This document shows, one piece after another, positions 1 to 33,047 of a stretch of 39,584 nt of DNA. The stretch is from Gammaproteobacteria bacterium (lineage in GTDB: Bacteria; Pseudomonadota; Gammaproteobacteria; Acidithiobacillales; Acidithiobacillaceae). The position numbers were made by a program, and so were the translations under genes. How positions within the stretch are numbered: the stretch's first letter is position 1; every line of letters begins with the position of its first letter. The stretch is taken from positions 1-39,584 of the forward strand of contig JAMCRJ010000018.1 in assembly GCA_023381645.1 (NCBI GenBank). The letters are read 5' to 3'. The notes beneath the pieces were generated by a model, which saw only the letters and a program-made list of their open reading frames with translations, had not been told where the DNA came from and ran no database searches.

Positions 1-300
1 TTCTGGTTCGACCTGCGCCCACTGTTCCGCCCCGGGTAGGGCCGTTCTTTCTCGGATGATCACCGACCAGTGTGCCGCCAGTCGAGTATTGATTTTCAGG
101 AATGCCTCCTGTCCATCCGGAATATCCACATCGCGATATATGACTCCCACTGGACAGACGACATAGAGTGCAGCCGATGTATTCGTCCAGATCGATAATC
201 AGAAAGTGGAGACCTTCGTGGAAACAATCTCTACTGAGCAGGACACACCGTAATCGGTGTATTTACAGCGGATACAGGTTTCGGTGACAGCATGAGTCAT
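1..300 (-). pseudogene. fdxA: Frameshifted 7Fe/8Fe ferredoxin (FdxA-like), 3' end outside window
   Basis: The minus-strand start ATG at 300-298 overlaps the stop of the upstream hemerythrin gene, which suggests translational coupling. The N-terminus reads MTHAVTETCIRCKYTD, close to bacterial FdxA ferredoxins. The frame then ends in a TGA about 34 codons in. The remaining similarity (DCFHEG..FLIID..EYIGCTLC) lies in another frame near 229-161. The stretch CPVGVIYRDVDIPDGQEAF and onward returns to the original frame from about 156 downward. This fits an insertion of about 2 nt near 230 and a deletion of about 5 nt near 160, within the second cysteine cluster. Family ferredoxins carry electrons with a 3Fe-4S plus a 4Fe-4S cluster. 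Two indels plus the stop would abolish the product, unless they are sequencing errors. Confidence 0.75.
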
Positions 301-815
301 GGTTTCGCCCCTGAGTGACGTGTTCGCATGGCGCTACCGATCTCGTCCAGCATGCCAACGGACAACAAACGTGCAGCAATCGGGAAGATTTCATCGTTTT
401 CAAGAGCAATGTGGGCCCGATGCATGGAAATGAAACGCTCCGGGGAAAGAGTCCTCCTGTGATCCATAGAAACATCTTCCAAATCCTTGGCAAGATCTTC
501 CCATGCAGTCTCCAAGTCGCGATGCTGAAGGGCGAGATTGCGCAATGACGCACGCAGATGGATAGGAAAGTCAAAGTGGGCGAGCAGAAAAGGAAAGAGA
601 TTTTCTTCCTCATCCGCATGATGTAGGCGAGCCGCAGTGTGGAAATATCGGAGGATACGCCTGATCGCCTGACGCGCCTCGTCATCAGAGCCGTGAGCAG
701 AGAGATATCCAGGCAAGCGTGCCAATGTGTCACAATGACCTAAAATTCGATTATGGCAGGCCATCAAGAGTCCAATGGGATCGTCAAAGCTGGGAGCCGT
801 GGAAAACAACTGCAT
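297..815 (-). CDS. Hemerythrin HHE-domain protein (172 aa)
   Basis: This is an all-helical hemerythrin-like protein expected to bind a di-iron centre, which in this family binds O2 or NO or takes part in iron-sulfur repair. Likely iron ligands are seen in HNRIL near residue 21, FHTAARLHHADEEENLFPFL, LQHRDLE and MHRAHIALENDEIF. I chose the start at 815 (MQLFSTAPS) because GGAGG lies about 9 nt upstream; the longer frame to 863 has no ribosome site. It sits 48 bp after a DUF2249 gene and overlaps the start of a ferredoxin gene, so the three form an operon. An FNR/DNR-type box precedes the operon, which suggests induction by low oxygen or NO. Function is inferred from the domain. Confidence 0.85.
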   Translation of the reverse strand: MQLFSTAPSFDDPIGLLMACHNRILGHCDTLARLPGYLSAHGSDDEARQAIRRILRYFHTAARLHHADEEENLFPFLLAHFDFPIHLRASLRNLALQHRDLETAWEDLAKDLEDVSMDHRRTLSPERFISMHRAHIALENDEIFPIAARLLSVGMLDEIGSAMRTRHSGAKP

Positions 816-863
816 GGTGATACCCCCTCCGGGCGTAACCGCACCCCTTTTACGGATCAGCAC

Positions 864-1139
864 TTAACCCATCTTGCTGAAGCGAATCCGTATCATGTGT
901 GGTGCGCGTTCCAGGTAAACCCAATCGATCCTCTCACCATAACGGCTGCGTAGTTGGTCGAGAAGCGGCAAAGGGTCGTGGTCGTTAATGAAATCCATAG
1001 CTTCTCCGCTGTGTAGAGCGTCCAAGGCCCCGAAAATGGCGGCATGGCGAAAGCGTTTGGCTACGCCACGCGCATCAAAGGGATAGGTAGCGTCGGTGCG
1101 AAGATGCATATGAGGCTGAGATGGGATGCTTGTAGTCAT
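864..1139 (-). CDS. DUF2249 domain protein (91 aa)
   Basis: The small cytosolic protein matches the DUF2249 pattern: FDARG near the start, then AIFGALDALHSGEAMDFIND, HDPLPLLDQL and WVYLERAP at the C-terminal side. DUF2249 proteins commonly occur beside hemerythrins and nitrogen-oxide genes, but their biochemical role is unknown. The start at 1139 follows GGAGG by about 7 nt; the upstream extension of this frame (to 1298) has no ribosome site and runs through the regulatory box. It is the first gene of an operon with a hemerythrin and a ferredoxin. A TATAAT hexamer near 1185 and the palindrome at 1215-1228 form its likely promoter. Confidence 0.82.
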   Translation of the reverse strand: MTTSIPSQPHMHLRTDATYPFDARGVAKRFRHAAIFGALDALHSGEAMDFINDHDPLPLLDQLRSRYGERIDWVYLERAPHMIRIRFSKMG

Positions 1140-1214
1140 GGCTTCCCTCCATGGATAATGGATCATAGCGAAACATCTACGCATTATAGTCGAGCATTTC
1201 GATAGAGTATTTCC

Positions 1215-1228
1215 TTGATCTTGGTCAA
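1215..1228 (-). promoter_or_regulatory. FNR/DNR-type box upstream of the DUF2249 operon
   Basis: Read on the minus strand, TTGAC-CAAG-ATCAA matches the FNR/DNR consensus (TTGAY-N4-RTCAA). It is followed by GGA, as are the other two boxes in the window. A perfect TATAAT lies 26 nt downstream, somewhat further than the usual class II spacing. Control by a Crp/Fnr-family sensor, possibly the one at the right edge of the window, is inferred. Confidence 0.75.
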
Positions 1229-1245
1229 GAAACATTAGATTTTTG

Positions 1246-1600
1246 TCAGCCAGTACGTACCATGTGAATACTATAAGCAGTCCCAGGACCGCTTCCACAG
1301 TGGCAAAGGCAAGAAAGGCGCCATCGACGATGGCATTGAGGGCAGGGGTCGGTAACTTTGTTGGACGATGGTGTGCCGGCGTCGACTAGCCGGGAAGAAA
1401 TCAAATAAGGTGCGTCGGCTTGGCCGGGTTCCCAGCAATCAAGGCCATGCCAGCACGATGAATAGACCAGCAATGATCCCACCATCTATATGAAAGGGAA
1501 GCATAGCAAGGCAATCCAAGGCCATGGCGATTCCGGTGAAAATCTGCAGGTTGACGGTGATGACGAGTTCCAACAGAACAACCAGAGACTATGCGTTAGG
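1246..1600 (-). pseudogene. Possible remnant of a membrane-protein gene
   Basis: The space between the lipoyl-protein gene and the DUF2249 operon holds no intact gene. On the minus strand two hydrophobic stretches can be read in broken frames. One (about 1590-1455) starts VVLLELVITVNLQIF and ends with GGIIAGLFIVLAWP and a stop. The other (about 1345-1246) reads NAIVDGAFLAFATVEAVLGL and onward. Both look like transmembrane helices, and the two together could be the decayed remains of one membrane protein. The family cannot be recognised. The FNR/DNR box at 1215-1228 lies just beyond the remnant. Confidence 0.35.
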
Positions 1601-1644
1601 CGCCCCTGATGGACGACGTGCAAGCCATCATGACCCAGTATTGC

Positions 1645-2091
1645 TCATTCCGAGCAGCGCATGCATTGCACCCCATAACGTTTGATCCAGGCCTCCAGCG
1701 CCGCAAGGGCCTCGACTCCGGTTTTGACGTTGTCCAGAGCATGTTGTGGCTCATCAGGTTTTACGCGGGCAATCCAAGCGTCATTGTAGGGATCAATATT
1801 GATCAGATGCGGGTCCTCTAACAACTGCTCATTGCGGGCAATGACTTCACCGGCGAAGGGAACGGGTACACCGCCTGCCCATTTGCCGCTTTCCAGCGTA
1901 GCCACATGCCGTCCGGCCTCCAGATGTGTTCCGACCTTTTTAATACGGGCTTTTTGCAAACGGCCAGACATGGTCTGAGCGGGGTCTGTGACCCCAATGG
2001 TTAGCGTACCGTCATCTTCCGGGCGCACCCAGACATAATCGAGGTCATAAAAAAGATCTTCAGGCAATTCGCAACCGTTATATTCACTCAT
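1645..2091 (-). CDS. GcvH-like lipoyl-domain protein (148 aa)
   Basis: This resembles the glycine-cleavage H protein: a compact lipoyl domain with a likely lipoylated lysine at residue 70 in LESGKWAGG, followed by VPFAGEVIARNEQLLEDP and INIDPYNDAWIARVKP. The ESGKWxG context differs from the usual GcvH ESVKAxSD motif. It is closer to GcvH-like and LbpA-type lipoate-binding proteins, known to work outside glycine cleavage. No glycine-cleavage genes are present. The start overlaps the hemerythrin stop (ATGA), so the two are translationally coupled as the last genes of the globin operon. A role as a dithiol carrier in a redox relay with the thioredoxin and reductase is inference. Confidence 0.8.
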   Translation of the reverse strand: MSEYNGCELPEDLFYDLDYVWVRPEDDGTLTIGVTDPAQTMSGRLQKARIKKVGTHLEAGRHVATLESGKWAGGVPVPFAGEVIARNEQLLEDPHLINIDPYNDAWIARVKPDEPQHALDNVKTGVEALAALEAWIKRYGVQCMRCSE

Positions 2092-2546
2092 GATGAGGAC
2101 TTCGCCTCAAAATCGAGAATACGCTTTCCCGCAGCTTCACCATGATCCGCCAGGGCCGCCCCCAGGAATGGATAAAGTTCAGTTTCTTCCTTGGTATCAT
2201 GCTGTTTGAGAATGGTTTGCACGGTGCTCAGCAGATCATCAAAGGTTTCCGCGTCCTGATTCTGAATGGCCTCCGCCATTTCTTCAAAAAATACGCGCAG
2301 ATCTTGATGCCCCTTGCGTAGCAAGGCAGTCAAGGGATGATCTTCACCGCCTTCCTGATGCTCGTACGCAGGAAACAGGGTACTTTCTTCCACCTCCATA
2401 TGACCATCCACAATCCCGTGGCGGAATGTCTCCAGGAAATGAGCAGCCTCCTGCCACGTACCATTGGCAACAGCATGAGCGCTCTGCTCCAAAAGCTGAT
2501 CCAAACGTTCATGGTCCTGTTGCATGATCTGATCTATGGGTGTCAT
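2088..2546 (-). CDS. Hemerythrin HHE-domain protein (152 aa)
   Basis: This is a second di-iron hemerythrin, distinct from the one at 297-815. Likely ligand motifs are DHERLDQLL near the N-terminus, FRHGIVDGHMEVEESTLFP, HQDLRVFFEE and HDTKEETELYPFL. The start at 2546 (MTPIDQIMQQDHERL) follows AGAGGA by about 7 nt; the longer frame reaching 2621 adds an unrelated tail. It lies 85 bp after a thioredoxin-like gene and overlaps a lipoyl-protein gene by 4 bp, within the globin-led operon. Binding of O2 or NO, or iron-sulfur protection, is inferred from the family and context. Confidence 0.85.
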   Translation of the reverse strand: MTPIDQIMQQDHERLDQLLEQSAHAVANGTWQEAAHFLETFRHGIVDGHMEVEESTLFPAYEHQEGGEDHPLTALLRKGHQDLRVFFEEMAEAIQNQDAETFDDLLSTVQTILKQHDTKEETELYPFLGAALADHGEAAGKRILDFEAKSSS

Positions 2547-2631
2547 GACATCCTCTGATAGTGTTGAGGTGGGCTTCTGTGCGACATAAACGCGGCTGAG
2601 GCTTTGTTCATGCGCATTCACCAGGTTATTT

Positions 2632-2877
2632 TCATTGGGCGCCGAGCATCTTCAGAACTTCACCCAACGGCTGTGCGCCTACGGTTTTCAGGGCACCGTC
2701 CACCACAATGGCTGGGACTGTTTTAATGCGCAGATTACTGACGATTTCGCGCCCTTCGCGTTCCGTTACATCCAGCACTTGCAATTCCATGGGCACTTTT
2801 TCGGAGGCTTCTTTCCATACTTTTTCAGCTTGCGGGCAAACGGGACACCATTTCGAAACCAGAATCTGTACTTTCAT
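2632..2877 (-). CDS. Small thioredoxin-like protein with CPVC motif (81 aa)
   Basis: This is a minimal thioredoxin/glutaredoxin fold. The redox motif WCPVC lies near residue 11, and a cis-proline loop (KTVPAIVVDG) follows in the second half. At 81 residues it is shorter than a classical thioredoxin (about 105) and similar to archaeal-type small redox proteins. The start at 2877 follows GAGGAG by about 8 nt. It lies 52 bp after the reductase stop, between the reductase and hemerythrin genes, so it probably reduces a disulfide or S-nitrosothiol in the same pathway. The partner is not known. Confidence 0.82.
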   Translation of the reverse strand: MKVQILVSKWCPVCPQAEKVWKEASEKVPMELQVLDVTEREGREIVSNLRIKTVPAIVVDGALKTVGAQPLGEVLKMLGAQ

Positions 2878-2929
2878 TATGAGCTCCTCAACATCCATGG
2901 CTGCCATGTTGCGAATCAGCGTAGCATTG

Positions 2930-3913
2930 CTAACCATTGGGCGCAAAAGCATCAAAGTGTATATGTTCATGGGGCACGTCATGAGAGAGCAGCAGGTCGA
3001 TGGCAGCTTCTATCATGCCAGGACCACCACAAAGATAAACTTCATGATTCTGCCAGTGACCTTTGGCTGCCACACTTGGTAGAAGACGGCGGGCTCCGCT
3101 CCAGTTTGCATCTTCTGCATCCGAAATGGTAGGAGTAACCGTGAGATGGACATACTGTTGAGTCCATTGCTGTAATGTTTCCAGATGATAAAGATCACGT
3201 TGTTTTTTCGCGCCATAAAAAAGATGGATAGGGCGGTTTTGTCCCAAGTCAATGCTTTCCTGAATAATGGCTTCAATAGGTGCCAATCCTGTCCCGGCAG
3301 CAATGCAGAGTATGGGGCGGTCATTATCCGGATGGAGCGCGAATTCGCCCAGAGAGGGTCCGAGAGTAATTGAGTTGCCGCATTGAGCCTGATAAAAAAG
3401 CCATTGGCTGAATAGACCACCAGGAAGTTCACGGACATGAAAAACCAGCTCACCGTGGTCCTGCGGAGGCGTGGCCATGGAGTAAGAGCGCCATTGATCT
3501 TCATGCCCTGGCACGGCCACCCGCGCATATTGTCCGGTTCTGTATGGATATGGTTTTGCCGGTCGTAACCGCAATTCTAGAACATTCCAGGCCAGTTTTC
3601 TCAGCCCCACAATTTCAGCATTCCAGATATTTTTGGGAATTACTTCAGCTTGTAGATGCATATTACTGCGCGGATAAAGCTTGCACAAAATAGCCATGCC
3701 TGCAGCACGCTCTGTGGGTGACAAAAGCAGGGGCATGAACGGTCCCTGCTCACTCTCTCCGGACAGGATAGTACCCTTGCAATCACCGCAGGAACCACTG
3801 GAACATCCATGTTTAATAGCCACATTATGCGCTTTCGCTGCTTCGACAATATTCTGACTTTCATCCGCCTTGAAGCAGGTACCGGAAGGTTCCAGACAAA
3901 TTTCAAATTCCAT
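2930..3913 (-). CDS. 2Fe-2S/FAD/NAD(P) oxidoreductase (327 aa), likely globin reductase
   Basis: The domains in order are a plant-type 2Fe-2S ferredoxin (Cys37, 42, 45 and 77), an FAD-binding barrel with RSYS at 142-145, and an NAD(P) domain with AAGTGLAPI and YLCGGPGM. This is the architecture of BenC/MmoC-type electron-transfer components. The gene starts 58 bp after the haemoglobin gene and precedes a thioredoxin-like gene. Because the globin lacks its own reductase domain, this protein is the obvious candidate to supply electrons from NAD(P)H; that pairing is inference. It is paralogous to the Hcr-like protein at 36006-37034. Confidence 0.85.
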   Translation of the reverse strand: MEFEICLEPSGTCFKADESQNIVEAAKAHNVAIKHGCSSGSCGDCKGTILSGESEQGPFMPLLLSPTERAAGMAILCKLYPRSNMHLQAEVIPKNIWNAEIVGLRKLAWNVLELRLRPAKPYPYRTGQYARVAVPGHEDQWRSYSMATPPQDHGELVFHVRELPGGLFSQWLFYQAQCGNSITLGPSLGEFALHPDNDRPILCIAAGTGLAPIEAIIQESIDLGQNRPIHLFYGAKKQRDLYHLETLQQWTQQYVHLTVTPTISDAEDANWSGARRLLPSVAAKGHWQNHEVYLCGGPGMIEAAIDLLLSHDVPHEHIHFDAFAPNG

Positions 3914-3971
3914 GTAGTCACCTCATCAGAGTGGCGCAGCGGAATACCCCCGCGCCACCGGTATGCTTAAA

Positions 3972-4433
3972 TCACACAGCGGGAGGCACGTCGTCGATGG
4001 TCACCGGGACGAAGCGGGAAGGGGCCATGGCCTCGTAGGCTGCCTCGATGCAAACGGTGGAGGCCAGGTTATAAGCCTCGATCCAGGATTCCGCCATTTC
4101 CTGCGTCCAGGCCTCACCCAGGAAATGCTTCAGGGTGTTGAGCAGGCTTTTGCCGACGATGGGGTAATGCTCTGGACGGGTATCGTATTTGATGTGCCCG
4201 ACACCGAGTTCTTTCAAATAAGGAACCAGCACTTCCATGGTGTCGATATTGGTGGCGATCAGAATGACGGAATTGAAGAGGCGCACCCGCTGCTCCGTCA
4301 TGTCCCCTGGAAACATTTTCCGCACTTCAGGGAAATGGGTGAACATATAGTTATAAAAATGCTCAGCAACCGGAACGCCTAAGTCCTTAACAGCAGCGCC
4401 GCTGGATTGGATGAGTTGGATATTGATAGCCAT
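3972..4433 (-). CDS. Single-domain bacterial haemoglobin (153 aa)
   Basis: This is a globin of the flavohaemoglobin/Vitreoscilla type without the reductase part. Aligned by eye with E. coli Hmp, it has the B10 tyrosine (Tyr27 in HFYNYMF), the E7 glutamine (Gln48 in TEQRVRLF), the proximal histidine (His80 in GHIKYDTRPEHY) and the HYPIVGKSLL helix. These residues support O2 binding and NO dioxygenation in the family. The start at 4433 has AGGAG 10 nt upstream. It is the first gene of a five-gene operon behind an FNR/DNR box at 4525-4538, so induction by NO or low oxygen is likely. Confidence 0.9.
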   Translation of the reverse strand: MAINIQLIQSSGAAVKDLGVPVAEHFYNYMFTHFPEVRKMFPGDMTEQRVRLFNSVILIATNIDTMEVLVPYLKELGVGHIKYDTRPEHYPIVGKSLLNTLKHFLGEAWTQEMAESWIEAYNLASTVCIEAAYEAMAPSRFVPVTIDDVPPAV

Positions 4434-4524
4434 TTGTTGTTGCTCCTGCAGGTTGAACTATGGATTTTAACTTCAGTAAAACGCCCTACGTTTTGCAGTT
4501 TATCAGGTTGCCGGTGCGCATTCC

Positions 4525-4538
4525 TTGATTTCAGTCAA
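4525..4538 (-). promoter_or_regulatory. FNR/DNR-type box upstream of the haemoglobin operon
   Basis: On the minus strand this reads TTGAC-TGAA-ATCAA. A TGATAAACT stretch about 20 nt downstream could be the -10 element, which places the box near -41.5, the usual activating position of FNR/DNR proteins. It lies 92 bp before the haemoglobin start, in the gap after the efflux operon. Confidence 0.78.
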
Positions 4539-4559
4539 GTTTGGCTGGGTCACGCCGCT

Positions 4560-5729
4560 CTACGCGTTATCGCGGATAATGGCGGCGGCTCGTTGCCGGG
4601 CATGTCGCAACTCTCCCTGGTATATATGGGTTTGGTATCCTCGTATCGGTGTGGTAGTGAGAGCTTTGAGCACAGAATGTTTTTGTGAGAGCGTCCAGTG
4701 AATCTCTGCAACCATGGAGAGCCCGGGCCGCAGGGGATGCTGGGCGAGTTCTGCGGCGGGTAATGCGATACGTACCGGCACCCGTTCGACGATATGGATG
4801 TAATTTCCGGTGGCATTCTCCGGCGGCAGGATGCTGAAGGCACTGCCGGCACCCGGCAACAGTCCCAGGACTTTGCCGTGATAATGAACATCGCCGCCAT
4901 AGTAATAACTGGTCAACTGAACGTTTTGTCCGGGGCGGACATGCCGCATGGCGGTTTCTTTCACGTTGGCTACGACCCACAAATCATTGAGGGGCACCAC
5001 GGAAAACAGGTGCTGATCGGGGTGCACCATCAGTCCGGGGTAGGCGGTGCGCTCCGCGACATAACCTGATACCGGTGCGCGGACAACTCGGCGTTGCCAT
5101 TGAATATCGGCCTGTTCAAACTGTGCCGCGGCCTGGCGCACGAGGGGATTCGTTTGCAGGGTGGTGCCCGCTATGATGGCTTGCGTGCCTTTTAGCGCCG
5201 CTTGGGCCGCCGCTACCTGTGCTGTCGCAGCAGCAATTTCGTTTTGTGTGTCTTCCAGGCGGATGGCGGAAACAGCGCCACTCGGCAGGGACTGCTTATA
5301 GCGGATAAAATCGGCGTTCAATTTGCGGAGTTCGGCGTTTTTGGCACTGACGGTCTGTTGCAGCGCGGTGACCCTGGCGAAATCCCTGCGTACCTGCCTG
5401 ACCGTCGCCGCCAGATGCGCCCCTGCTTGCTGTAGTGCGATCCGCGAGCGATGGGCCTGAAGGGTGGCCATTACCTGTCCGGCGTGGACGAATTCGGTAT
5501 TTTCTACGAGTACCCTGCTGATGGTACCGGCCGTCTGGTTATCCACCGGCGTAATATTGCCGGAGACGTAGGCATCGTTGGTTTCTATCCAGTACTGCCC
5601 CCGCAAAAACCACCACGCGGCCCAGATCAATCCGGCAAGCACGAAAATAAGGGTAACGAGCCCCAGCATCCGGGCGCGTTTTTCCGGCTGGATGGGAGCA
5701 CTCGAATGTTCGGGCTTCTGCATGCTCAT
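4560..5729 (-). CDS. HlyD/EmrA-type periplasmic adaptor (389 aa)
   Basis: This is a membrane-fusion protein that links an inner-membrane pump to an outer-membrane channel. One N-terminal membrane helix spans about residues 20-42. Then comes a biotin/lipoyl-like half motif (ITPVDNQTAGTISRVLVEN), a long helical hairpin (about 90-190) and the second half motif with VRAPVSGYVAERTAYPG. The length is usual for EmrA. The start overlaps the outer-membrane gene by 4 bp (ATGA). It is the last gene of a pump-channel-adaptor operon; the substrate cannot be told from sequence. Confidence 0.9.
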   Translation of the reverse strand: MSMQKPEHSSAPIQPEKRARMLGLVTLIFVLAGLIWAAWWFLRGQYWIETNDAYVSGNITPVDNQTAGTISRVLVENTEFVHAGQVMATLQAHRSRIALQQAGAHLAATVRQVRRDFARVTALQQTVSAKNAELRKLNADFIRYKQSLPSGAVSAIRLEDTQNEIAAATAQVAAAQAALKGTQAIIAGTTLQTNPLVRQAAAQFEQADIQWQRRVVRAPVSGYVAERTAYPGLMVHPDQHLFSVVPLNDLWVVANVKETAMRHVRPGQNVQLTSYYYGGDVHYHGKVLGLLPGAGSAFSILPPENATGNYIHIVERVPVRIALPAAELAQHPLRPGLSMVAEIHWTLSQKHSVLKALTTTPIRGYQTHIYQGELRHARQRAAAIIRDNA

Positions 5730-7159
5730 GCGGGATTCTTCCGCGAGGTATATCCGCCACCCAGCGCTGAATGCAGCAATACCCAGGATTGCGCATTTTG
5801 CATCTTTAACGCCAGCAGTTGATTATTTATTTCCGTTTCCTGAATCTGTGCGCTATAGACTTCCGCTTTGTCCGTAATTCCGGAATGAAAGGCAGATTCA
5901 GCCAGCGCCGTGGTATGCTCGGCGGCGAAAATCATCTGCCGTTGTGCGCGAAGTTTTTGGCGTATCTGTCGCCAGGTGGCCAGCCGACCGGCAATCTCGC
6001 GCACCGCGCCGAGGATGGTGGCGCGATAATGGTCTTCCGTGGCTAGATATAATGCATTTTTCTCTTTCAGTTGGGCGCGTAATCTCCCCCCTTCGAAAAT
6101 CGGCAGAGATATGACCGGGCCAAGGGCGTGTGCGAGATTGCCGGGACTGAACAGATCTCCCAGATGAATACTGTTCCATCCCGCAAACAGGGCGATATTC
6201 ACATCGGGATAAAAGGCCGCGCGTGCCGCGCCCACCTGTTGCGCCGCGACTTCTGTTTCCCAGCGCGCAGCGACTATATCCGGACGGTGCGCAATGAGGC
6301 GTAGTGGCAAATTCCGCGGCATGGTGATCGTGGATAGCGTGGGCAACGGCTCTGCCGGAATATCCCGCCCCCAATCGGGTCCGTGTCCGACCAGTGCCGC
6401 CAATATGTAGCGCTGCTGAGCAATGGCTGCCTGCATGTCGGCTACCGACTGGCGTGCCCCTGCGCGCGCCTCTTCCTGAAGATAAACAGCGCGGGCATCG
6501 CTCAAGCCGTCGTGCCAGCGCTGTTGTTCCAGGTGGAGTAAGGAGGTGTGCAGGGCTTCCGCGCGATCCAATTGCCGGAGGCGTTGTACATCACCTGCCA
6601 GCAAAAGGTAGTGCCACGCCAATTGGGTGGAAAGCAATATTTTTGCCTCGGCGTAATCCGCCTGGTGTACGCGTACTTCCCCCAGGGCGGCGCGTACGCG
6701 GTCGCTGTCCCGTCCCCACAAATCCAGGTGATAGCGCATTTCCAGAGGATTGAGAGCACCATAGGTGATGGTTTTGCCATTCAACGGGGCGTGCAAGCCT
6801 TGCCGGGAAAAGTACTCCTGAGTCACCGACGCAGCTGCGGAAAAATGCGGGAGAAGGGCGGCATGCTGGTCTGCGGCAGCCGCTTTGGCTTGCAGAATGC
6901 GCGCACTGGCGACCTGCAGCGAAGGATTGTCGCGCAGCGCTTCGGTGATCAACGTGTTCAGGGCCGGTAGCTGTGCCGAAGTCCACCAGTTTGACACGGG
7001 CCAGGTACCCGTAAGCACACCATTATGGCCGTCAACGTATGCCAGTGTTCCGCTGATTTGCGTATTCTGCGCCATTTTGCCGCCGGGGAGGTGCGGCGGT
7101 AGGCGTGCGCAGGCGCCGAGCAACAACAACGGTAGGATAAGGGCGATGCGGCGTTTCAT
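5726..7159 (-). CDS. NodT-type outer-membrane efflux lipoprotein (477 aa)
   Basis: This is a TolC-like channel protein. It has a lipoprotein signal with lipobox LLGAC (Cys17) and two outer-membrane efflux repeats. The first includes LNTLITEALRDNPSLQVASA and the second, in the C-terminal half, includes PDVNIALFAGW. The length is normal for the family. The start ATG shares one base with the stop of the MFS pump gene, and the 3' end overlaps the adaptor start, so all three are made from one transcript. Together they form an EmrAB-TolC-like tripartite exporter. Confidence 0.88.
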   Translation of the reverse strand: MKRRIALILPLLLLGACARLPPHLPGGKMAQNTQISGTLAYVDGHNGVLTGTWPVSNWWTSAQLPALNTLITEALRDNPSLQVASARILQAKAAAADQHAALLPHFSAAASVTQEYFSRQGLHAPLNGKTITYGALNPLEMRYHLDLWGRDSDRVRAALGEVRVHQADYAEAKILLSTQLAWHYLLLAGDVQRLRQLDRAEALHTSLLHLEQQRWHDGLSDARAVYLQEEARAGARQSVADMQAAIAQQRYILAALVGHGPDWGRDIPAEPLPTLSTITMPRNLPLRLIAHRPDIVAARWETEVAAQQVGAARAAFYPDVNIALFAGWNSIHLGDLFSPGNLAHALGPVISLPIFEGGRLRAQLKEKNALYLATEDHYRATILGAVREIAGRLATWRQIRQKLRAQRQMIFAAEHTTALAESAFHSGITDKAEVYSAQIQETEINNQLLALKMQNAQSWVLLHSALGGGYTSRKNPA

Positions 7160-8703
7160 CAGGGTTCCACCAGTTCTTCCAGCGCCTGGCGCACCCGGAC
7201 ATCCGGTTCGGCGAAAACCACCCGTTTAGCCAACAATAACAGGGCGGCTACGATCAGAAACCCCCATGCGGCGATGTAAAATATTTCATTGAAAGCGAGC
7301 ATTGCAGCATGGTGGTTTATGTAGTCGGATGTTCTCGCACTTTTCACGGAGGCGTTGAACATGGATGTTATCGTTCCGCCATTTTCAGTAAGAAAATGCG
7401 TGTGAAGAATCGTCCTTCTATCGAATAGAGTAGCTATTATCGGAATGCCCATGGCCTGTCCAGACACCCGCAGCAGATTTAAGAAGGCGGTGCCACGCAT
7501 TTCGGCGGCTCCACGCAATCCGGAAAGCGCGATGGCGATCAACGGCGGGAATAGGCTGCCCAGAAACATGCCCACAAGTATCTGCGGCCAGATCAGTTCA
7601 TCAAAAGAAGCCGTCCGACTATAGGAAGAAACCCAGAAACTGCCTGCCGAAAATCCCAGCAGGGAAATCATCCCGAGTATGCGCGCATCAATATGATTCA
7701 AAAAACGCTGGGTGAGCGTGGCACTAAGTTTTGAGAAAATAGCCATGGGCAATAATAAAAGGCCGACCATCCATGCGGAATAGCCCATGGTCAACTGAAA
7801 TCCAACAATATAGAGAGCCATGGTGCCCTGAAAAAAGAGAGCAGTAAAAAATAGGCCGATTGCGCCGATCAGAAAATTACGGCGCCGCAGAAAGCGCAGT
7901 TCCAGCAAGGGGTGGATGCTGTGCCATTCCCAGAGCGCAAAGAAAACAAGCGCGGCAGCACCGATAATCGTCAGAAAAATGATGGTATTGGAACGCCACC
8001 AACTGATGATTTCGCCGGAATTGAGTGCAGACTCCAGCGCTGCCAAGGCAATCAGCAGGAAAATCAGCCCCGTCCAGTCTAATGGCGGATGGTGATGTTC
8101 CGCTTCACGCCCGACCAGAAGTATCGCGCTGATCAAGGCGACCGCGACGGCAATGGGCATGTTGAGGTAAAACAGCCAACGCCAACCCAGGGTGTCGGTG
8201 ATCCAGCCCCCGATGGTCGGCCCCAAGGTGAACGGTGTAATGGCCGCGATGCCCCAGAGAGTGAGGCCGATATTGCGCCGTTGTGGCGTGTAGTGACGCA
8301 GGATGACACCGAGGGAGATGGGAATGGTCAATCCGCCCGCATAACCCTGGACGATGCGCGCGGCCAAAAACCAGTGGTAATTGCTGGTCTGGGCGCATAC
8401 GGCGGAAGCCAGGGCAAAGGCGAGGAAGGCGCCGAGCAGGCTACGCATCTCCCCCCAGCGGTTCAGAAACCACGTCGCGGTGGGAAAAGCCAGTGCCATG
8501 GCCAGGAAAAAATTTGCCTGGGTCCAGTCTGCATAAGCGGGATTGACGCCCAGACTCCCGGCAACACGGGGGATCATGGGCAGATAGGCCCCGGTGTTGA
8601 AGAGTACGAGGAGGTGACCCAGTCCGATCACCAAGTTGAGGAGTATCACCATGGACGCGCTGAGTGATGGTATCGGGGCGGCAACACGGAGGGAGGATGT
8701 CAC
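7159..8703 (-). CDS. DHA2-family MFS efflux pump, EmrB-like (514 aa)
   Basis: This is a proton-driven drug exporter of the 14-helix DHA2 type. The protein is hydrophobic throughout, with the family motif GNTGAYLPMI-like region near residue 35, the R-x-x-Q-G motif (AARIVQGYAGG) and the motif C-like stretch GVILRHYTPQRRNIGLTLWG. The start used is a GTG at 8703 with no clear ribosome site, so a downstream ATG is possible. It leads the efflux operon and is divergent from a LysR-type gene that probably once controlled it. Confidence 0.88.
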   Translation of the reverse strand: MTSSLRVAAPIPSLSASMVILLNLVIGLGHLLVLFNTGAYLPMIPRVAGSLGVNPAYADWTQANFFLAMALAFPTATWFLNRWGEMRSLLGAFLAFALASAVCAQTSNYHWFLAARIVQGYAGGLTIPISLGVILRHYTPQRRNIGLTLWGIAAITPFTLGPTIGGWITDTLGWRWLFYLNMPIAVAVALISAILLVGREAEHHHPPLDWTGLIFLLIALAALESALNSGEIISWWRSNTIIFLTIIGAAALVFFALWEWHSIHPLLELRFLRRRNFLIGAIGLFFTALFFQGTMALYIVGFQLTMGYSAWMVGLLLLPMAIFSKLSATLTQRFLNHIDARILGMISLLGFSAGSFWVSSYSRTASFDELIWPQILVGMFLGSLFPPLIAIALSGLRGAAEMRGTAFLNLLRVSGQAMGIPIIATLFDRRTILHTHFLTENGGTITSMFNASVKSARTSDYINHHAAMLAFNEIFYIAAWGFLIVAALLLLAKRVVFAEPDVRVRQALEELVEP

Positions 8704-8759
8704 GGGCGGTGGTGTTTGCTATTTATCGGAAGACGCGGCGATAATGCGGCCCGTGAATA

Positions 8760-8783
8760 TATAAGTCAAATTGGAAATTTATA
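8760..8783. promoter_or_regulatory. Inverted repeat in the pump/LysR divergent promoter
   Basis: An AT-rich TATAA-N14-TTATA repeat lies between the divergent starts of the pump (8703) and the LysR gene (8809). Such positions usually hold LysR operators, but this repeat lacks the strict T-N11-A form, so the assignment is weak. Confidence 0.3.
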
Positions 8784-8808
8784 ACTAACATATAGGTGAT
8801 AGCGATAT

Positions 8809-9066
8809 ATGGATACCGAGCTTTTGCTGACTTTCCTAACCGTGGCACGGTCCGGGGGCATCAGTGCGGCGGCCAGGGTGCTGCACCGCAGTCAACCGGC
8901 GGTGACGGAGCGTTTGCAGAAACTCACCCAGCAAGTGGGAGAACCACTCACCATGCGCAGCGGCCGGGGTATTCGCCTGACGCCGGCCGGGGAGGCGCTG
9001 CTCTCCACCGCACAGCGGATGCGCGATGTAGTGTCAACGCGTTTCTTGCATCTCCGTCTACGCTGA
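8809..9066 (+). pseudogene. LysR-type regulator truncated to its DNA-binding domain (85 aa)
   Basis: Residues 1-70 form a typical LysR winged helix-turn-helix (LLLTFLTVARSGGISAAARV, then QPAVTERLQKL and LTPAGEALL). After RMRDVV the frame runs into STRFLHLRLR and stops, so the co-inducer-binding domain of about 200 residues is missing. AGGTG lies 10 nt before the ATG. It is divergent from the efflux operon, the usual place for its regulator. The truncated protein might still bind DNA but could not respond to a ligand in the normal way. Confidence 0.8.
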
Positions 9067-11951: not shown

Positions 11952-14783
11952 TCACCATCCCATCCCCGGCCCCCGCGAACGCGCCACCTCCTGACGGTAC
12001 GCCGCACGGCCTCCCTGCAAGGCTTGGGACAGCGCCTTTTCATCTACGCCCAGACCGGCCCCACGCTGCACCAAGTTCGCCCATTCCTGCCGGTTCCGCT
12101 CTTGCTGCACAGGATTACTGTTCGCCTCTGCCCGGCGGCCCAGATCATGGGCCACTTTCCGCAAGTCATTGCGCGCCTGTGCTAAACGCGCCTCCCGTTC
12201 CTGTCTGGCCCGCTCCATCCCCTGTTGGTAAGCCGTCTCCGCCAGGTTCTCGAGCGACGGATCCTCCTGGATCTTCTGCACGAGACGCTGATACTCCGGG
12301 TTCGCGTCACGCTGCTCCCGGCTCCATTGCCCGCTTTCCACGCGATAGCCCACCCCTTCCGCCCGCTTTTGAAGATCCGCCTCCAACTCCTTCCGCCGAA
12401 CCGCCGCCAGCGCGTCCCAGGCCGCCTGCACACCCGGCAGATCCGAATCCGGTTCGGGGTAGCCATAAAATCCTTTTTCATTCACCACAAAACCCGCTTC
12501 CTGAAACAGTCGTCCAGAATCCGCCGAACCCTGCTGCTCCAACTGGCTCACCAGCACCTCCAGCTTCCGCGCCGCCGCTTCCCGCCGCCGCTGAACCGCC
12601 TTCCGCTCCAGGTCCAGCGTGTACCAGGCCTGCTGCCGTCCATCCGGCTCATGAGTGTTCAGGCGCCCTCGCGCCTGATCGAGCGCGTCCTTGTTCCCGG
12701 CTTTCCCCAGGGCCGCCTCATCCAGTCGCACCGACTGCCGCAGCAGGTGTTCCAGCACCAACACCTTTTTCGTGACCGTCACATCACTGCCAAACGTCAC
12801 CGTCACGCCATGGGCGACCCCGGCCCGTTGCCGGCGATCCCGCAAAAACCCGGCGTATCGCTCGACCGACTCCCGCGTCACCGCCCCGGTCATGGTCCAC
12901 GCGATACCCTGACCTTCCGGCGCATCCTTTCCGACTTTCAACGTCAGACCGCCCTGCGCCCAGGCGTTGTAGGCCGCTTCCCGTCCGGCGGCCGCCGCCT
13001 GCGCTTTCAACGGGTCGGGATCTTTGGAAAGCGTCTGCCACGCTGTCGTTTCTCCGTAACGGCCCACCGTCCAGGCCTCTGCGGCTTCCCATAGAGCAGG
13101 GCGCTGCAGGGCCCTACGATCCAGCCCTTCCGGGCACGCCCACGGCAATTTTCCACCCGCCAGCCGTTGCGCCTGAGCCTGTTTCGGATGCGCCCGCATC
13201 CATTCCGCCAGTACCGGTGCCGCGGACAGGTCCCGCTCCCGCTCGGCCTGGACCAATTCCCGCTGCCGCTCGGTTATCTGAGCAACCAAATCTTTGTCCG
13301 TCAGCGCAAAACCCGCCGCCAGCGCCGCTGCTCCCGCCCGCAGCCGGAAGTCCTCTGTCCCCGTCACCACCAGGGATTTCCAGCCCTTCGCTGCCGCCAG
13401 CTTCAGCAGGACGTCGATTTCCTGAGACTTTCCCTCCGGACTGGATGCCGCCTGCAAGGCCACCAGCCGGTCGCCATAGTCGCTGATATCCAGCACCCGG
13501 TTGTGGATATGCAGGCTGGGCGCCCTGCCAAGGGTCCGGCTGCCCAGATCCCTTTCCACCCGCACCCAGCGCCCCAGGGCACGGGCGACGTCCGCTCCAT
13601 AGGCGTCCGTCAGTACTCGTTCGCGATATACCGCCCAGGCAGGCCGCGCCGGGTCTTTCGCTACCGGATCCGGTGCCCGGAACCCGTTGCGCGTCTCCGC
13701 CAGTGTCTCGGCATCCAGGACCCGATCCATCCGCGCCCGCTGCCGTTTCCGCCACCGCTCCCGGATCCCCATCTTCTCGAAAGGATCCCGATGCGCCTGG
13801 CGCGTCCGCGCCGCCGACAGCACCGCTTGCGCCTGCTCCACCGCCTGCCGGTCCCGCTCCATCGCCGCTTCCGCCAGACGCCGGGCCTCCGCCGCCTGCG
13901 CCCGCTCGGCCTTGGCCGCCTCAAAATCTACCACCATCGCCGCCTGCCTCGGCGCCTTCTCCGGACCACCGTGCGTCAGCACCCGACCCTTCTTCGGCTC
14001 CGGCGGCCGATCCAGTGCATCGGCAACCTGGGCATGGCGCCTGGCCGCAACCTCATCGCCTTGTGCCCGGGCCTCCTCCACCATCCGCTCCTGTTCTATC
14101 CGCCGCGCTTCCAAGGTCCGGTGATCGATCCGCGCATCGACTTCCGCCTGGGCCAGCGCGTCGTTCGCCAGGCGCGCCCAGAGAGGCCGCACCACCTCCC
14201 CCAGCCATTCCTGGCCGATCCGCGCCTGCGTCTTCGGCGCGCCTCCCTGGGCCGGGTCCACTGGATTTTTATTCTTCGGAGAGGCGGCGGCCCTTTTGAA
14301 CCACAAGGCCGGATCCCGATCGATGCCATCGTTCACCTTGTCACTCAGCATCAGGTGGCAGTGCAGCAGCATGGGCTTCTTTTCGCTGCGGTGGATCGCG
14401 AACGTATACGGCGTCTTGCCGCCCGGCACGTCCGCCAGACGCTCGGCAAATGCCCGCGCCAGGGCAATGTTCTCCGCGTCGGACAATTCTTTCGGCAGCG
14501 CGAACTCGATCTCCCGATAGACCGTGCCGTTCGCCCGCTCAAAACGATCCGCAGCGTCCCAGTAGTCTGCGGGATCCTGCGTCCAGGCGGGCAGATGGGC
14601 GGATTCGGCAAAAAGCACTTCGCTGGATCGATCAATCCGCACCCGCTCGACCACCGCACCGTTCACCTGCTCCACCATCTTCTGGGCATAGGCCCCTTCC
14701 CGCAGGATGTACCGCACATGCCCGCCGGCGCCTTTTCCGGCGCCGCGACTGTGGGTTTTTGCGTGTAGGTGATATTCCGCCAT
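11952..14783 (-). CDS. MobA/MobL-type (MOBQ) relaxase with long C-terminal region (943 aa)
   Basis: The N-terminal 200 residues form a MobA/MobL relaxase: MAEYHLHAKTHSRG, a conserved YREIEFALPKEL block, and the metal-binding His131 and His141/His143 (HCHLMLSDKVNDGIDRD). Relaxases nick oriT and lead the strand during transfer. A charged coiled region follows. Around residues 430-520 a segment (DRLVALQAASSPEGKSQEID, then KGWKSLVVTGTEDFR) matches LPD7-type domains found in relaxases. The start at 14783 is preceded by CGGAG. It is divergent from a TraD-like gene across a candidate oriT. There is no coupling protein or type IV secretion gene, so transfer would need a helper. Confidence 0.88.
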   Translation of the reverse strand: MAEYHLHAKTHSRGAGKGAGGHVRYILREGAYAQKMVEQVNGAVVERVRIDRSSEVLFAESAHLPAWTQDPADYWDAADRFERANGTVYREIEFALPKELSDAENIALARAFAERLADVPGGKTPYTFAIHRSEKKPMLLHCHLMLSDKVNDGIDRDPALWFKRAAASPKNKNPVDPAQGGAPKTQARIGQEWLGEVVRPLWARLANDALAQAEVDARIDHRTLEARRIEQERMVEEARAQGDEVAARRHAQVADALDRPPEPKKGRVLTHGGPEKAPRQAAMVVDFEAAKAERAQAAEARRLAEAAMERDRQAVEQAQAVLSAARTRQAHRDPFEKMGIRERWRKRQRARMDRVLDAETLAETRNGFRAPDPVAKDPARPAWAVYRERVLTDAYGADVARALGRWVRVERDLGSRTLGRAPSLHIHNRVLDISDYGDRLVALQAASSPEGKSQEIDVLLKLAAAKGWKSLVVTGTEDFRLRAGAAALAAGFALTDKDLVAQITERQRELVQAERERDLSAAPVLAEWMRAHPKQAQAQRLAGGKLPWACPEGLDRRALQRPALWEAAEAWTVGRYGETTAWQTLSKDPDPLKAQAAAAGREAAYNAWAQGGLTLKVGKDAPEGQGIAWTMTGAVTRESVERYAGFLRDRRQRAGVAHGVTVTFGSDVTVTKKVLVLEHLLRQSVRLDEAALGKAGNKDALDQARGRLNTHEPDGRQQAWYTLDLERKAVQRRREAAARKLEVLVSQLEQQGSADSGRLFQEAGFVVNEKGFYGYPEPDSDLPGVQAAWDALAAVRRKELEADLQKRAEGVGYRVESGQWSREQRDANPEYQRLVQKIQEDPSLENLAETAYQQGMERARQEREARLAQARNDLRKVAHDLGRRAEANSNPVQQERNRQEWANLVQRGAGLGVDEKALSQALQGGRAAYRQEVARSRGPGMGW

Positions 14784-18963: not shown

Positions 18964-21900
18964 TTACAACGCTCCCGTAACCGTGTCTTCCGGCTCGCGG
19001 AGTGGACGCATTTCGCCTTTTGCCACGGACTCCGGTACCAGGAACGAATACCGGCCCAGCATGTTGATGTGTTCATGCAGTAGCGGCGACAAATGCGCTA
19101 CGTCGGCCTCAATTACCGGATAGCCATCCGCACGCAACTGACTCAGTGCTGCATCCATGTAGAGGGTGTTCCACAGAACGATCATATTGAGCACTAGGCC
19201 GAGGGCGCCCAATTGATCTTCCTGGCCCGCGCGGTAATGCTGACGCAGTTCTCCGCGCTTGGCATGGAATACCGCCCTGGCGACACTGTGGCGCGCCTCG
19301 CCACGGTTGAGTTGCACCAAGGTACTGCGGCGTAGCGCCTCATCGTCGATATAGCGCAGCATGTGCAGTGTTTTGTCTATGCGACCGTATTCGGCTATGG
19401 CCTGCGCCAGGCGCGTCGGCCGGTCACCGGCCTGCAGCGTGCGCATAATGCCGCTCGCCGATACTCGACCTAATTTGAGCGAACCTGCCAGACGCAGCAT
19501 GTCATCCCAGTGTGGCACGATCCGCTGCAGGTGCAGTTGATGCGCTGAAATCGCATTGAGTAATCCGTAGTCGGCCTGCGGATCAATCCGCCAGAAGCGC
19601 GTGCCGCCGACATCCGCCAGGCGTGGACTGAAGCGATAACCCAGAAGTCGGAACAGACCAAAGACGACGTCGCTATAGGCCCCAGTGTCGGTCATGATCT
19701 GCGTCGGTTGGAGATCGGTGGTTTGGTCCAGGACTACCGCCAACAGAATCAGACTATCGCGCAGCGTGCCCGGCACAGCAATGTCATTGAGACCGGAGAA
19801 CTGGTCGGATATCAAGTTGTACCAAGTTACGCCACGACCAACACCGAAGTATTTCGGATTAGCGCCGGCATGCACCGTGTGCACCGGGACCACAAAACGC
19901 ATACCATCGGCCGATGCCACTTCACCACCACCCCACAGGCTGGCCAGATCCAGATGACTTTGTGCTGACACCAGCACTGCATTCGCGGCAGTCAGCGTGT
20001 CGTCACGCAGATAGTTTTGGTTTACCCAAGATAACCTATCGCGCTTGAGGGCGGGTACATCCCCACGGATCAGCGGCTCCAGGCCTGTATTGCAGGCTTC
20101 GGCCATCAGCACAGCGCAAAGACTGACGTGCAAATCTGTGGCTCTGGCCGTGCGTTCCGATAGGTGCGTGAAGGCCTCGGTGAAGCCGGTACGGGCCGCG
20201 ACCTCCAGAATCAGTTCCGGCAAGTCCACACGAGGCAGCAAGCTCGCCACTTTCGCCCGCAACGCGATCAGTGAGGCGGGTTCATGCATTTTTTCCAAAG
20301 GGCTGAGCACCAGTTCGGACTGGTCACCAACCGTCTCGAAGCGCACGGCGGCGTTGTCCGGCAGCCTGGCGGCAACCGCTTGGTAGGTTCGGTCCAGATC
20401 ACGCGCCAAAGCCTCCAGTGTCGGCTCAGGGCTCACCGACAGGTCCAGCGTGCGGCAAATGACCGGTCTGGTGGCCTCCCACTCGGCGCCATCGATCAGT
20501 CCGGCGCGTGGATCGGCATAACGCCAGCTCGGCGCTACAAATATGTCACGTCGCTTGAGTGACGCCTGTAGCCGATCTAGTACGCAGAACGTATATGCAT
20601 GGAGGTCGATGGCATCATTCTCGCGCAAAACATCGGCCTGCCAGGATTTGCCAACCACCTCACGTGGTGCCGCACTGGCGGGTTTTTTCTGCGGCTGTAC
20701 CATGTTCACCCGCAACCAATCGAGGGCGGCGATGACCGGTTCCCCCGTGGCATTGGCACCAAACTGAACCTGTTCGGCCAGTAGTGGCAAAAAACGCCGC
20801 ACCGTTCGATACTTGGATTCCAGCTCCTGGTAGTACACGTTGCCAGCTGGCCGGATCAGCAGATTTACACCGGCGAGTGCCTGTGCAAGCACCTCTCGCG
20901 GAATGTTCTCGAACACTTTGTGACGCAGTTCAGCATCCCGCACCTCAGGGTCCAGCAGCATTTGACAGGCGCGGGCCAGAGTTGCTGCCGCCTGATCCAG
21001 ATCCTTCAGTGTGCGCAAGCGTGCCTTTTTGTCCGCCTTGGTAGCATCTCCAAACAGTTCGCGTAGCAGCGCCTCCAACACGTCCAGAGCATCATCCATG
21101 GCCGACACTTCCAGACAGTGGACAAAGGCGACCAGGGTTGCCAGGCGTCTTGGGTTCGGCAAGCGCAAAATCGCGCTAGCCTTGGCGGCGCTGGCGAAAC
21201 GGGCTAACGCGGCTACCCGCGTGGCCGGGATCAGCGCCGTGGCGGGTAACCGGATGCCCAGGGCACGCACCGATTGCAACCGCTGCAAGGCGTGAACCAG
21301 TGAAGTGGCGCTGACCGTTACCGGCCCCTTGCGCAGGCGATCAAGGGGCGAGTTACGCTGACCCGATGGAACGCTCAGCAAGCCCTCCAGCTGGGCTTGC
21401 TGGTCATCGCTAATACCACGGGTCAATGCATGCCACAGACGCAGCTCCACCCGGCTGCGCAGGCGCGTCACATGACGTTCGAGGGTGCTGCACCCGGGCA
21501 GCAATACTTTGTGCGTCATTAGCCAGGCTGTCGCCCGCTCGAACAACGCCGTCGGTCGGTCTGTGCCGGTCCAGCACAGGGCATACAACCAGCGTGTCAG
21601 GCGCCACCCCACCCGTGGCTCGGTGATTTCGGCGTAGCCATATTCGGCGCGGATCTCCTGCGCATGTTGCCACCGCTGTTGGCCCGTGCCATAGGATTCG
21701 ATACCATCGAACGATTCGATATACAGCTGGCGGGCCAATGTCTGCAATATCGGCGCTGGCACTGCCAGCGGTTCATCCAGAAAGGTCCCGAGGTAACGCA
21801 CGGTGCTGAGTTGCACCGCAAAGCCGAGTCGGTTGTGTTCGCCGCGCTTGCGTGCGATCAGACCCAGATCAACGTCGTCGAGGTGGAAATAACGCGCTAG

Positions 21901-28991: not shown

Positions 28992-29019
28992 GAGACGGCG
29001 GCGGAGTTTGCGAAGCCTA

Positions 29020-30611: not shown

Positions 30612-30629
30612 TTATTATCCTTGCTCGCA

Positions 30630-31555: not shown

Positions 31556-31579
31556 GCAAATAAGCTCCAATACAAGTAA

Positions 31580-31615: not shown

Positions 31616-31667
31616 TCAAGTTTGGCAATATTGATTGCGCACTTGAGAATTCGGAATATGAAGCCCG

Positions 31668-33035: not shown

Positions 33036-33047
33036 GGAATCACTGTC

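Follow-up and report, generated by a model that had tools for sequence, protein, structure and literature searches.

What function could bring together, in one row of genes, a globin, a reductase, a thioredoxin, a hemerythrin and a lipoyl protein? The question is raised by a five-gene cluster in a 39,584-nucleotide stretch of DNA (hereafter the window, positions 1 to 39,584 of contig JAMCRJ010000018.1 in assembly GCA_023381645.1) from a gammaproteobacterium of the family Acidithiobacillaceae. The genes were recognised from open reading frames (ORFs) and Pfam matches, all above the respective cut-offs, and lie on the minus strand between positions 4433 and 1645. They encode, in order, a single-domain globin of 153 amino acids (3972–4433; Globin, 57 bits), a reductase of 327 amino acids with 2Fe-2S ferredoxin, FAD and NAD domains (2930–3913; Fer2 37, FAD_binding_6 39 and NAD_binding_1 62 bits), a mini-thioredoxin of 81 amino acids with a WCPVC motif (2632–2877; Thioredoxin_3, 48 bits), a hemerythrin-domain protein of 152 amino acids (2088–2546, the start codon being taken from the annotation of a matching plasmid; Hemerythrin, 63 bits), and a GcvH-like lipoyl protein of LbpA type with 148 amino acids, here named LIP (1645–2091; GCV_H, 113 bits). 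A preliminary description of the window, drawn from its sequence alone, had noted that the five genes face one way with short gaps or overlaps, and the spacing agrees: 58, 52 and 85 bases separate successive genes from the globin onwards, and the last pair overlaps by 4 bases. That observation is confirmed, and the interpretation attached to it, a two-protein flavohaemoglobin joined by a thiol relay, is partly supported. The system is real and conserved, with one half already predicted in the literature and the other half apparently undescribed. We regard it as quite possible, though short of probable, that it is a plasmid-borne defence cluster responsive to nitric oxide (NO), in which a DNR-controlled NO dioxygenase is combined with a lipoyl/thioredoxin relay against nitrosative damage.

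Places encoding LIP relatives at 58% identity or more numbered 36, in 26 of 57 genomes, and all 36 were examined together with two loci for LbpA, the lipoate-binding proteins that belong to the sulfur-oxidation system sHdr. All five genes lie on the same stretch in 21 of the 36, in keeping with the expectation that the gene order would be conserved in relatives, except that the thioredoxin is often inverted: it is co-oriented with LIP in nine of the full clusters, as in the window, and inverted in 12, an inverted copy being located beyond LIP at L033, L051 and L055. The species are related, and these counts do not represent independent events. The remaining 15 loci include some with thioredoxin, hemerythrin and LIP and without globin (L023, L024, L026, L040, L041, L049) and some with LIP and none of the other four genes (L021, L034), the rest holding other parts, in some cases at contig ends. 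In one genome, G005, LIP is present four times, and three of these copies belong to full clusters. In two Acidithiobacillus genomes, G002 and G004, only half-clusters are found (L160:1–1567 and L161:1541–3105), in which a remnant of LIP, its final 17 and 20 residues respectively, comes directly after the reductase, and the thioredoxin, the hemerythrin and most of LIP are missing; no mini-thioredoxin (at 1e-10) and no full cassette LIP was found elsewhere in either genome. The two junctions look alike, and the loss may therefore have been one shared event. It follows from these half-clusters that the globin half can stand without the other half, and together with the globin-free relatives they rule out an obligate complex of all five proteins. 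The picture of five genes as a single unit thus gives way to two separable modules, as seen in the globin-only genomes and in distant lipoyl-thioredoxin loci without globin.

By its sequence, LIP itself belongs to the family of LbpA lipoate-binding proteins known from sulfur oxidisers, as an additional branch to which a C-terminal CxxC has been added. An ordinary GcvH was considered and rejected: LIP scores below both curated GcvH cut-offs (76.6 vs 115.85 bits for TIGR00527, and 110.9 vs 117 for NF002270, the latter a narrow miss), the relatives carry a separate GcvH-type gene, and the tree places the two apart. In an alignment LIP shares an N-terminal GC and the ESGKWA/V site with both LbpA proteins of the sHdr locus. 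Its ESGKWAG site, which had been called unusual, is so in comparison with GcvH, where nine of ten GcvH-type rows read ESVKAA, but not in comparison with sHdr LbpA, where all 14 rows read ESGKWA or ESGKWV. A tree of 44 proteins separates 34 LIP and LbpA rows from the ten GcvH-type rows with support of 100/100 (with a long-branch warning); within it, 19 of 20 LIP rows form one branch (86/95), the Aquificaceae row from L138 falls outside, and the sHdr LbpA rows form two branches. The sHdr LbpA pair sits elsewhere in genomes with LIP, and because LIP is located outside the hdr-like cluster we classify it as LbpA-like rather than as an sHdr LbpA.

The residues on which a lipoyl function would depend are well conserved. 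Lys70, the predicted lipoylation site (codon at 1882–1884, minus strand), is invariant across 63 aligned sequences, as are Cys7 and Cys143 and, in addition, Cys146. Two cysteines near the N- and C-termini that are absent from GcvH are described as marks of LbpA (PMC6067878); LIP has both of these plus a second C-terminal cysteine and therefore ends in a CxxC, Cys143-Met-Arg-Cys146 in the window (1654–1665, minus strand). This CxxC occurs in 79 of 79 proteins from the loci described below and in 119 of the 120 database proteins listed among 2608 matches (62 of the 120 entered the alignment). ESGKW occurs in 79 of 79 and, among the same 120 listed, in 114; its presence in all locus proteins is largely built in, because the search for the loci used the patterns [VI]TDPAQTM and LESGKWAG; the CxxC is not built in. 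The AlphaFold model of LIP has a pLDDT of 86.6, with a mean of about 57 over the CxxC tail (residues 141–148), and its best fold match in the PDB is 3ab9, the lipoylated E. coli H-protein (TM score 0.92 by target length and 0.79 by query length).

The partner that accompanies LIP most persistently is the mini-thioredoxin. Neighbour counts were made at 80 loci out of 140 confirmed stretches from a scan of public genomes, 58 of lower identity and 22 from Acidithiobacillus, with neighbour profiles built from the same loci as were counted. The 58 include L080, a contig of G026 that belongs to the family of the window's own relatives, and the 22 largely repeat the set of 36 loci; L126, which has no clustered LIP ORF, is left out of the 79 locus proteins and included in the neighbour counts. 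In 58 of 58 and 19 of 22 loci (the others being L069, L074 and L075) a mini-thioredoxin, either alone or membrane-fused, is encoded no more than 5 kb from LIP, and none was found at 5–10 kb in either set (0/58 and 0/22). Within the same 5 kb a hemerythrin is present in 40/58 and 21/22 loci, a second hemerythrin in 33/58 and 5/22, a regulator from the CRP/FNR cluster to which the window's DNR-like gene belongs in 29/58 and 11/22, the reductase in 4/58 and 16/22, and the globin in 1/58 (L080) and 14/22. The 5–10 kb control, which for the 58 loci comprises 440,804 bases vs 532,536 within 5 kb (both flanks being full in 34), is empty for thioredoxin, hemerythrin, globin and lipoate ligase, and contains CRP/FNR regulators in 2/58, second hemerythrins in 1/58 and 2/22, reductases in 3/58 and DUF488 genes in 4/58. 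Among 54 genomes, LIP and mini-thioredoxin are both present in 26; of the others, 26 have neither, none has LIP only, and two have thioredoxin only (G021 and G029, 71% and 61% complete). At nine further loci from the search of the class, the thioredoxin is near LIP in seven and not at L164 and L165. At the level of gene content, the thiol-redox half of the original interpretation is supported.

Across lineages the pair keeps varied company. In 32 of the 58 lower-identity loci the thioredoxin best fits the profile of a thioredoxin-membrane fusion (25 such ORFs have at least 200 amino acids), and in 29 there is a small membrane protein that matches COX1 weakly; in these lineages LIP is placed between the two. 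One example of the latter, flanking LIP in Thioalkalivibrio and others, is a protein of 132 residues with an invariant HxH and H (L121:9594–9989); at L109:837–1502, also flanking LIP, a thioredoxin is fused to a domain resembling it. The COX1 match scores 23.9 bits, below the Pfam cut-off of 34.8, and in a fold search cbb3 oxidases came first at non-significant E-values of 0.18–0.57. A lipoate-ligase gene (LplA-B_cat) is located about 1.5 kb from LIP, within 2.5 kb, in 15 of the 58; the one at L087:8125–9165 is divergent from a CRP/FNR-type gene and LIP, and in its catalytic part it shares 28–35% identity with the nearest matches from genomes of the Acidithiobacillus order. No LplA-like ligase was found among the nine window ORFs scanned, and none is annotated on the closely matching plasmid pACF1. 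NnrS is encoded within 5 kb of LIP in four of the 58 (363 bits at L127), and a search at L134 of Thioalkalivibrio halophilus found, beside LIP, a flavohaemoglobin (476.8 bits, cut-off 432) together with an NsrR-like repressor (159.6 bits, below the cut-off of 182). On the 36 stretches of closer relatives, a nitrate gene is present in 15 and a DNR-like gene in 17; of the nitrate genes, narG, narH, nirB and one narK score above curated cut-offs, and the nrtA-like gene encodes an NMT1-type protein. Neither a nitrate gene nor a DNR-like gene was found at the two sHdr loci, which are the sole control. The closest solved structure to the regulators is DNR.

The control region of the cluster points in the same direction. 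The DNR/FNR-type box noticed at the outset, TTGATTTCAGTCAA, lies at 4525–4538, 91 bp before the globin start, and matches TTGATN4RTCAA without mismatch. The DNR consensus, TTGATN4ATCAA, is that given in PMC1274295, and the cluster has an FNR-like box of this kind upstream. Only three mismatch-free matches occur in the window, the others being at 1215–1228, before the DUF2249 gene and second hemerythrin gene, and at 38828–38841 (TTGATTTCAATCAA, a perfect palindrome), before hcp. With up to one mismatch allowed there are 10 matches vs 3.9 expected, a number reached by 3 of 100 shuffles. Of 24 globin genes (window and relatives), 22 have a TTGAYN4RTCAA box upstream, and at least nine of ten box positions match within 200 bases upstream in 19 of 24, vs 0.18 expected from shuffles. 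Neither this recurrence of the box nor that of all five genes in 21 of 36 loci is a matter of chance. The neighbouring operon on the minus strand encodes the DUF2249 protein (864–1139; Pfam on a longer ORF, start from the plasmid annotation) and a second hemerythrin-domain protein (297–815; Pfam and plasmid annotation). At the other end of the window, also on the minus strand and with annotation and coordinates transferred from pACF1, are hcp, the hybrid cluster protein presumed to belong to the same regulon (37093–38763), an FAD-binding oxidoreductase that is of hcr type by its position after hcp (36006–37088), and nnrS (34753–35949). On the plus strand a CRP/FNR regulator starts at 39107 and is cut by the window end at 39584; it has a cNMP_binding domain, and its best PDB match is the DNR protein 3dkw. 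Because of the three mismatch-free boxes and this DNR-like regulator gene, the globin cluster, the DUF2249 operon and hcp look like a single DNR-type regulon. The NO context assumed in the preliminary description is thus borne out by the DNR-type box, the DNR-like regulator and hcp, the oxidoreductase and nnrS on the same DNA, as well as by the nitrate genes near the loci of relatives.

The window seemingly derives from a plasmid of an iron- and sulfur-oxidising acidophile. Where compared (positions 1–9000 and 28900–39584), it closely resembles Acidithiobacillus ferrooxidans plasmids of 44–47 kb: positions 1–9000 match two of these over their full length at 99.2% and pACF1 in two places, of which the larger is 2878–9000 at 98.8%, and positions 28900–39584 match pACF1 and one of the former two at 100.0% over the whole length and the third plasmid at 99.8%. 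The latter segment is also matched by a smaller At. ferridurans plasmid, NC_005023, with hcp at 98.6%. Plasmid pACF1 (44,377 bp) holds both operons (globin/LIP and DUF2249-hemerythrin), the Crp/Fnr regulator, hcp with its oxidoreductase, and nnrS, along with an HdrB-related gene, DUF488, an AhpD-domain gene, a glycosylase, transposases, MobA/MobL and toxin-antitoxin genes. To judge by this gene content, it reads like a nitrosative-stress plasmid.

The globin half invites comparison with flavohaemoglobin. Residues Tyr27, Gln48 and His80, named in the preliminary description, are at those positions, and with Tyr90 they are kept in all 24 globins (window and 23 relatives); by the flavohaemoglobin nomenclature they are TyrB10, GlnE7, HisF8 and TyrG5. 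At the position of Glu H23 of the catalytic triad, all 24 globins have Ala (Ala132 in the window), and the globin may for this reason differ in rate from flavohaemoglobin; the Glu is present in the flavohaemoglobin at L134. The reductase has the motifs CX4CX2CXnC from residue 37, RSYS at 142, GTGLAP at 207 and CGGP at 295, and it scores best, though below cut-off, with oxygenase reductases of MmoC/BenC type. The proposal of a split flavohaemoglobin holds insofar as a globin is adjoined by a reductase gene. A flavohaemoglobin simply cut in two is ruled out by the N-terminal 2Fe-2S domain, the MmoC/BenC-type likeness and the Ala in place of Glu; instead of a single chain there are two genes, scoring 97.3 (globin) and 85.8 bits (reductase) against the NF009805 cut-off of 432. 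Judged by these features, globin and reductase together are an analogue of flavohaemoglobin. The hemerythrin of the cluster was considered as an Fe-S repair protein of the RIC/YtfE type and rejected (24.6 bits vs a TIGR03652 cut-off of 204.7).

If the cluster serves in defence against NO, the DNR-type regulator would sense NO and activate transcription at the TTGAYN4RTCAA box. In the first module, the globin would bind O2 and convert NO to nitrate, and the reductase would re-reduce it. In the second, the hemerythrin, the mini-thioredoxin and LIP, putatively lipoylated at Lys70, would deal with the products that NO forms on the thiol side: NO or S-nitrosothiols would transfer the nitroso group to the dihydrolipoyl arm, which would close to the lipoamide disulfide, the CPVC thioredoxin would return electrons, with Cys143-x-x-Cys146 as a possible relay, and any NO or HNO set free could pass to the globin or the hemerythrin. 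The sequences establish the gene content and its conservation, the box, the descent of LIP from LbpA, its linkage and co-occurrence with the thioredoxin, and an adjacent ligase gene in other lineages; control by NO, lipoylation, the path of the electrons, the substrate and the function of the hemerythrin are, like all the chemistry of LIP, our inference. This chemistry has some precedent. A 2005 report by Stoyanovsky is said, in its title, to concern denitrosation catalysed by thioredoxin and lipoic acid. The reaction of NO with reduced lipoate to HNO is described in PMC10444860. Beyond the window, we propose more tentatively that LIP and the mini-thioredoxin constitute a dedicated lipoyl-based reductase of NO or S-nitrosothiols in sulfur oxidisers, that is, a lipoate-binding branch outside sHdr with a C-terminal CxxC, which would have been recruited from the apparatus of sulfur oxidation, brought under DNR-type regulators and combined with lineage-specific NO sinks (globin-reductase, flavohaemoglobin, NnrS or the COX1-like membrane protein, hemerythrins).

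Several findings weigh against a defensive role. The NO-lipoate chemistry in PMC10444860 is reported as damaging to pyruvate dehydrogenase, which means that a lipoyl protein could be what NO damages and not a protection against it. The Ala at the Glu position is shared by every globin of the set, and G002 and G004 keep an intact globin and reductase in the absence of the second module. LIP and thioredoxin are on separate contigs or 57 kb apart in G007, G016, G018, G030 and G031, and contig breaks may explain some of these cases. No nitrate gene is present on 21 of the 36 LIP stretches and no DNR-like gene on 19, some of the stretches being short. To these are added the links of LIP to sulfur oxidation, which lead to the main rival explanation, a role in sulfur transfer. 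LIP would then be a satellite of sHdr: sulfane sulfur or persulfides would be carried on its lipoyl arm and cysteines and released by the mini-thioredoxin, and DNR-type control would tune sulfur oxidation under NO or nitrate respiration.

We consider this explanation somewhat unlikely. It is favoured by the 100/100 grouping of LIP with LbpA against GcvH, and by the company LIP keeps in genomes. Among 369 genomes of the class, 18 have LIP (E ≤ 1e-45) and 20 have sHdr LbpA (E ≤ 1e-42), with both in 16, LIP only in two (G245, G390), LbpA only in four and neither in 347; both searches report 369 genomes, and the unlisted ones are assumed to be identical. Because the species are related, the Fisher values for these counts, too, do not stand for independent events. 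Most genomes with LIP are those of sHdr sulfur oxidisers, a distribution that agrees with a sulfur function as well, and LbpA2 is described as indispensable for Hdr-like sulfur oxidation in Hyphomicrobium (PMC6067878). On the other hand, the co-occurrence could mean only that LIP needs the lipoylation enzymes linked to sHdr; either this or action on sulfur may apply. The sHdr LbpA pair, moreover, is encoded elsewhere in the same genomes, and when 25 of the 80 loci were traced to 25 genomes of unstated completeness, an LbpA with 66–77% identity to the sHdr query was present in 16 and none at 66% or more in nine; several are draft metagenome-assembled genomes. An HdrB homologue does lie near LIP at L035 (8695–9843, about 0.1 kb after LIP), L039/L059 (1.9 kb), L088 (4.4 kb) and L044 (7.2 kb) and on the matching plasmid L159 (2391–3728), where it is 89% identical to HdrB of the sHdr locus L038, but among the 116 LIP-locus entries searched it was found in five, two of which are the same contig. 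HdrB stands alone on the complete plasmid pACF1, with no other Hdr annotation, and in most of the other loci the DNA ends within it. A rhodanese gene is found near LIP in eight loci of the Thioalkalivibrio cluster, yet the usual neighbours of LIP are thioredoxin, hemerythrins and CRP/FNR-type regulators and, in places, NO genes.

A second rival, which we judge improbable, holds that there is no common mechanism: the globin-reductase pair, the hemerythrin, the thioredoxin and LIP would each answer stress independently, and nothing but shared DNR-type control together with plasmid or transposon shuffling would have assembled them. The two genomes with globin and reductase alone fit this explanation, as do the frequent inversion of the thioredoxin in full clusters, its lack of linkage to LIP in five genomes, and the multiplication of copies in G005. 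It accounts less well for the persistence of the LIP-thioredoxin link in distant lineages with different gene orders, for the prevalence of the membrane-fusion profile among the thioredoxins, and for the loss in G002 and G004, which removed thioredoxin, hemerythrin and LIP together. That the globin is instead an O2-delivery or sensing protein like Vitreoscilla haemoglobin, induced at low oxygen via an FNR-type box with NO incidental, is very unlikely: Vitreoscilla haemoglobin is its best PDB sequence match, the box fits FNR too and the Glu position is Ala, but the nearest regulator is DNR-like by its best PDB match, hcp (with the same box), the oxidoreductase and nnrS are on the same DNA, and the operon type was predicted in 2005 to be one of DNR-regulated NO detoxification (PMC1274295).

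That prediction bears on how much of the defence cluster is new. Rodionov et al. (PMC1274295) predicted two dnr paralogues in A. ferrooxidans as parts of two NO-detoxifying systems, one dnr being divergent from hcp-COG0543 and the other located beside cgb-COG0543-COG0446, with a DNR site at each operon. Both arrangements recur in the window: downstream of a DNR site come the single-domain globin and its neighbouring reductase, and the dnr-like gene is divergent from hcp and an oxidoreductase, which likewise have a DNR site in front. The plasmid unites both of these operon types. The 2005 work is a prediction only, and one sentence of its discussion names HcpR, not DNR, for cgb; unlike the present description, its main text contains "lipo" and "thioredoxin" zero times and "hemerythrin" once, for HcpR regulons. 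We found no description of the lipoyl/thioredoxin/hemerythrin combination in the open-licence literature searched. The claim that no such system had been described therefore stands, apparently and within that literature, for the lipoyl-thioredoxin half, and fails for the globin-reductase-DNR half.

Other known systems can be compared as well. Like the sHdr LbpA proteins described in PMC6067878, LIP has the conserved lysine, ESGKW and N- and C-terminal cysteines, with an LplA-like ligase nearby in some relatives; unlike them it has one more cysteine at the C-terminus and branches separately, is located outside the sHdr cluster and partnered by a mini-thioredoxin, and in Acidithiobacillus it is paired with the DNR-boxed globin operon. 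The globin shares TyrB10, GlnE7, HisF8, TyrG5 and a flavin reductase for its re-reduction with flavohaemoglobin Hmp, and differs in consisting of two proteins, with an added 2Fe-2S domain and Ala for Glu. It belongs to the same one-domain family as the globins of Vitreoscilla and Campylobacter (the latter according to PMC1274295), in contrast to which the reductase gene is here next in the operon, supplying a candidate electron donor for a single-domain globin. Another parallel would be a system of Mycobacterium tuberculosis. There, lipoyl-DlaT, Lpd, AhpD and AhpC reportedly form a peroxidase and peroxynitrite reductase (Bryk 2002), in which, as proposed here, a lipoylated protein passes electrons to a thioredoxin-like adaptor in nitrosative defence; the carrier there is said to be an E2 subunit and the adaptor AhpD. 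One AhpD-domain gene is present on the matching plasmids. As a conserved partner of LIP this gene was considered and rejected, with no match at 1e-10 among the 118 loci L021–L138.

In acidic habitats nitrite readily gives NO, which is of relevance to acidophiles. A few multienzyme complexes are known to use lipoic acid as a cofactor, and since 2018 the same has been known of sHdr sulfur oxidation, as described in PMC6067878 and PMC10332631. The company of LIP and thioredoxin across many sulfur oxidisers hints at an unstudied use of lipoic acid; if LIP and mini-thioredoxin do act with the NO genes, they would represent a further such use and would connect sulfur oxidation directly with nitrogen-oxide stress.

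Further genes of the window lie outside the cluster. Efflux genes of EmrA/EmrB type with an outer membrane factor occupy 4560–8703, ending just before the globin box, and an EmrA/EmrB-type neighbour is retained at several Acidithiobacillus loci. A MobA/MobL protein is encoded at 11952–14783, an ORF of 1003 amino acids at 18964–21975 resembles, by eye, a Tn3-type transposase, and a reverse transcriptase, of group II intron type on pACF1, is encoded at 23378–24859.

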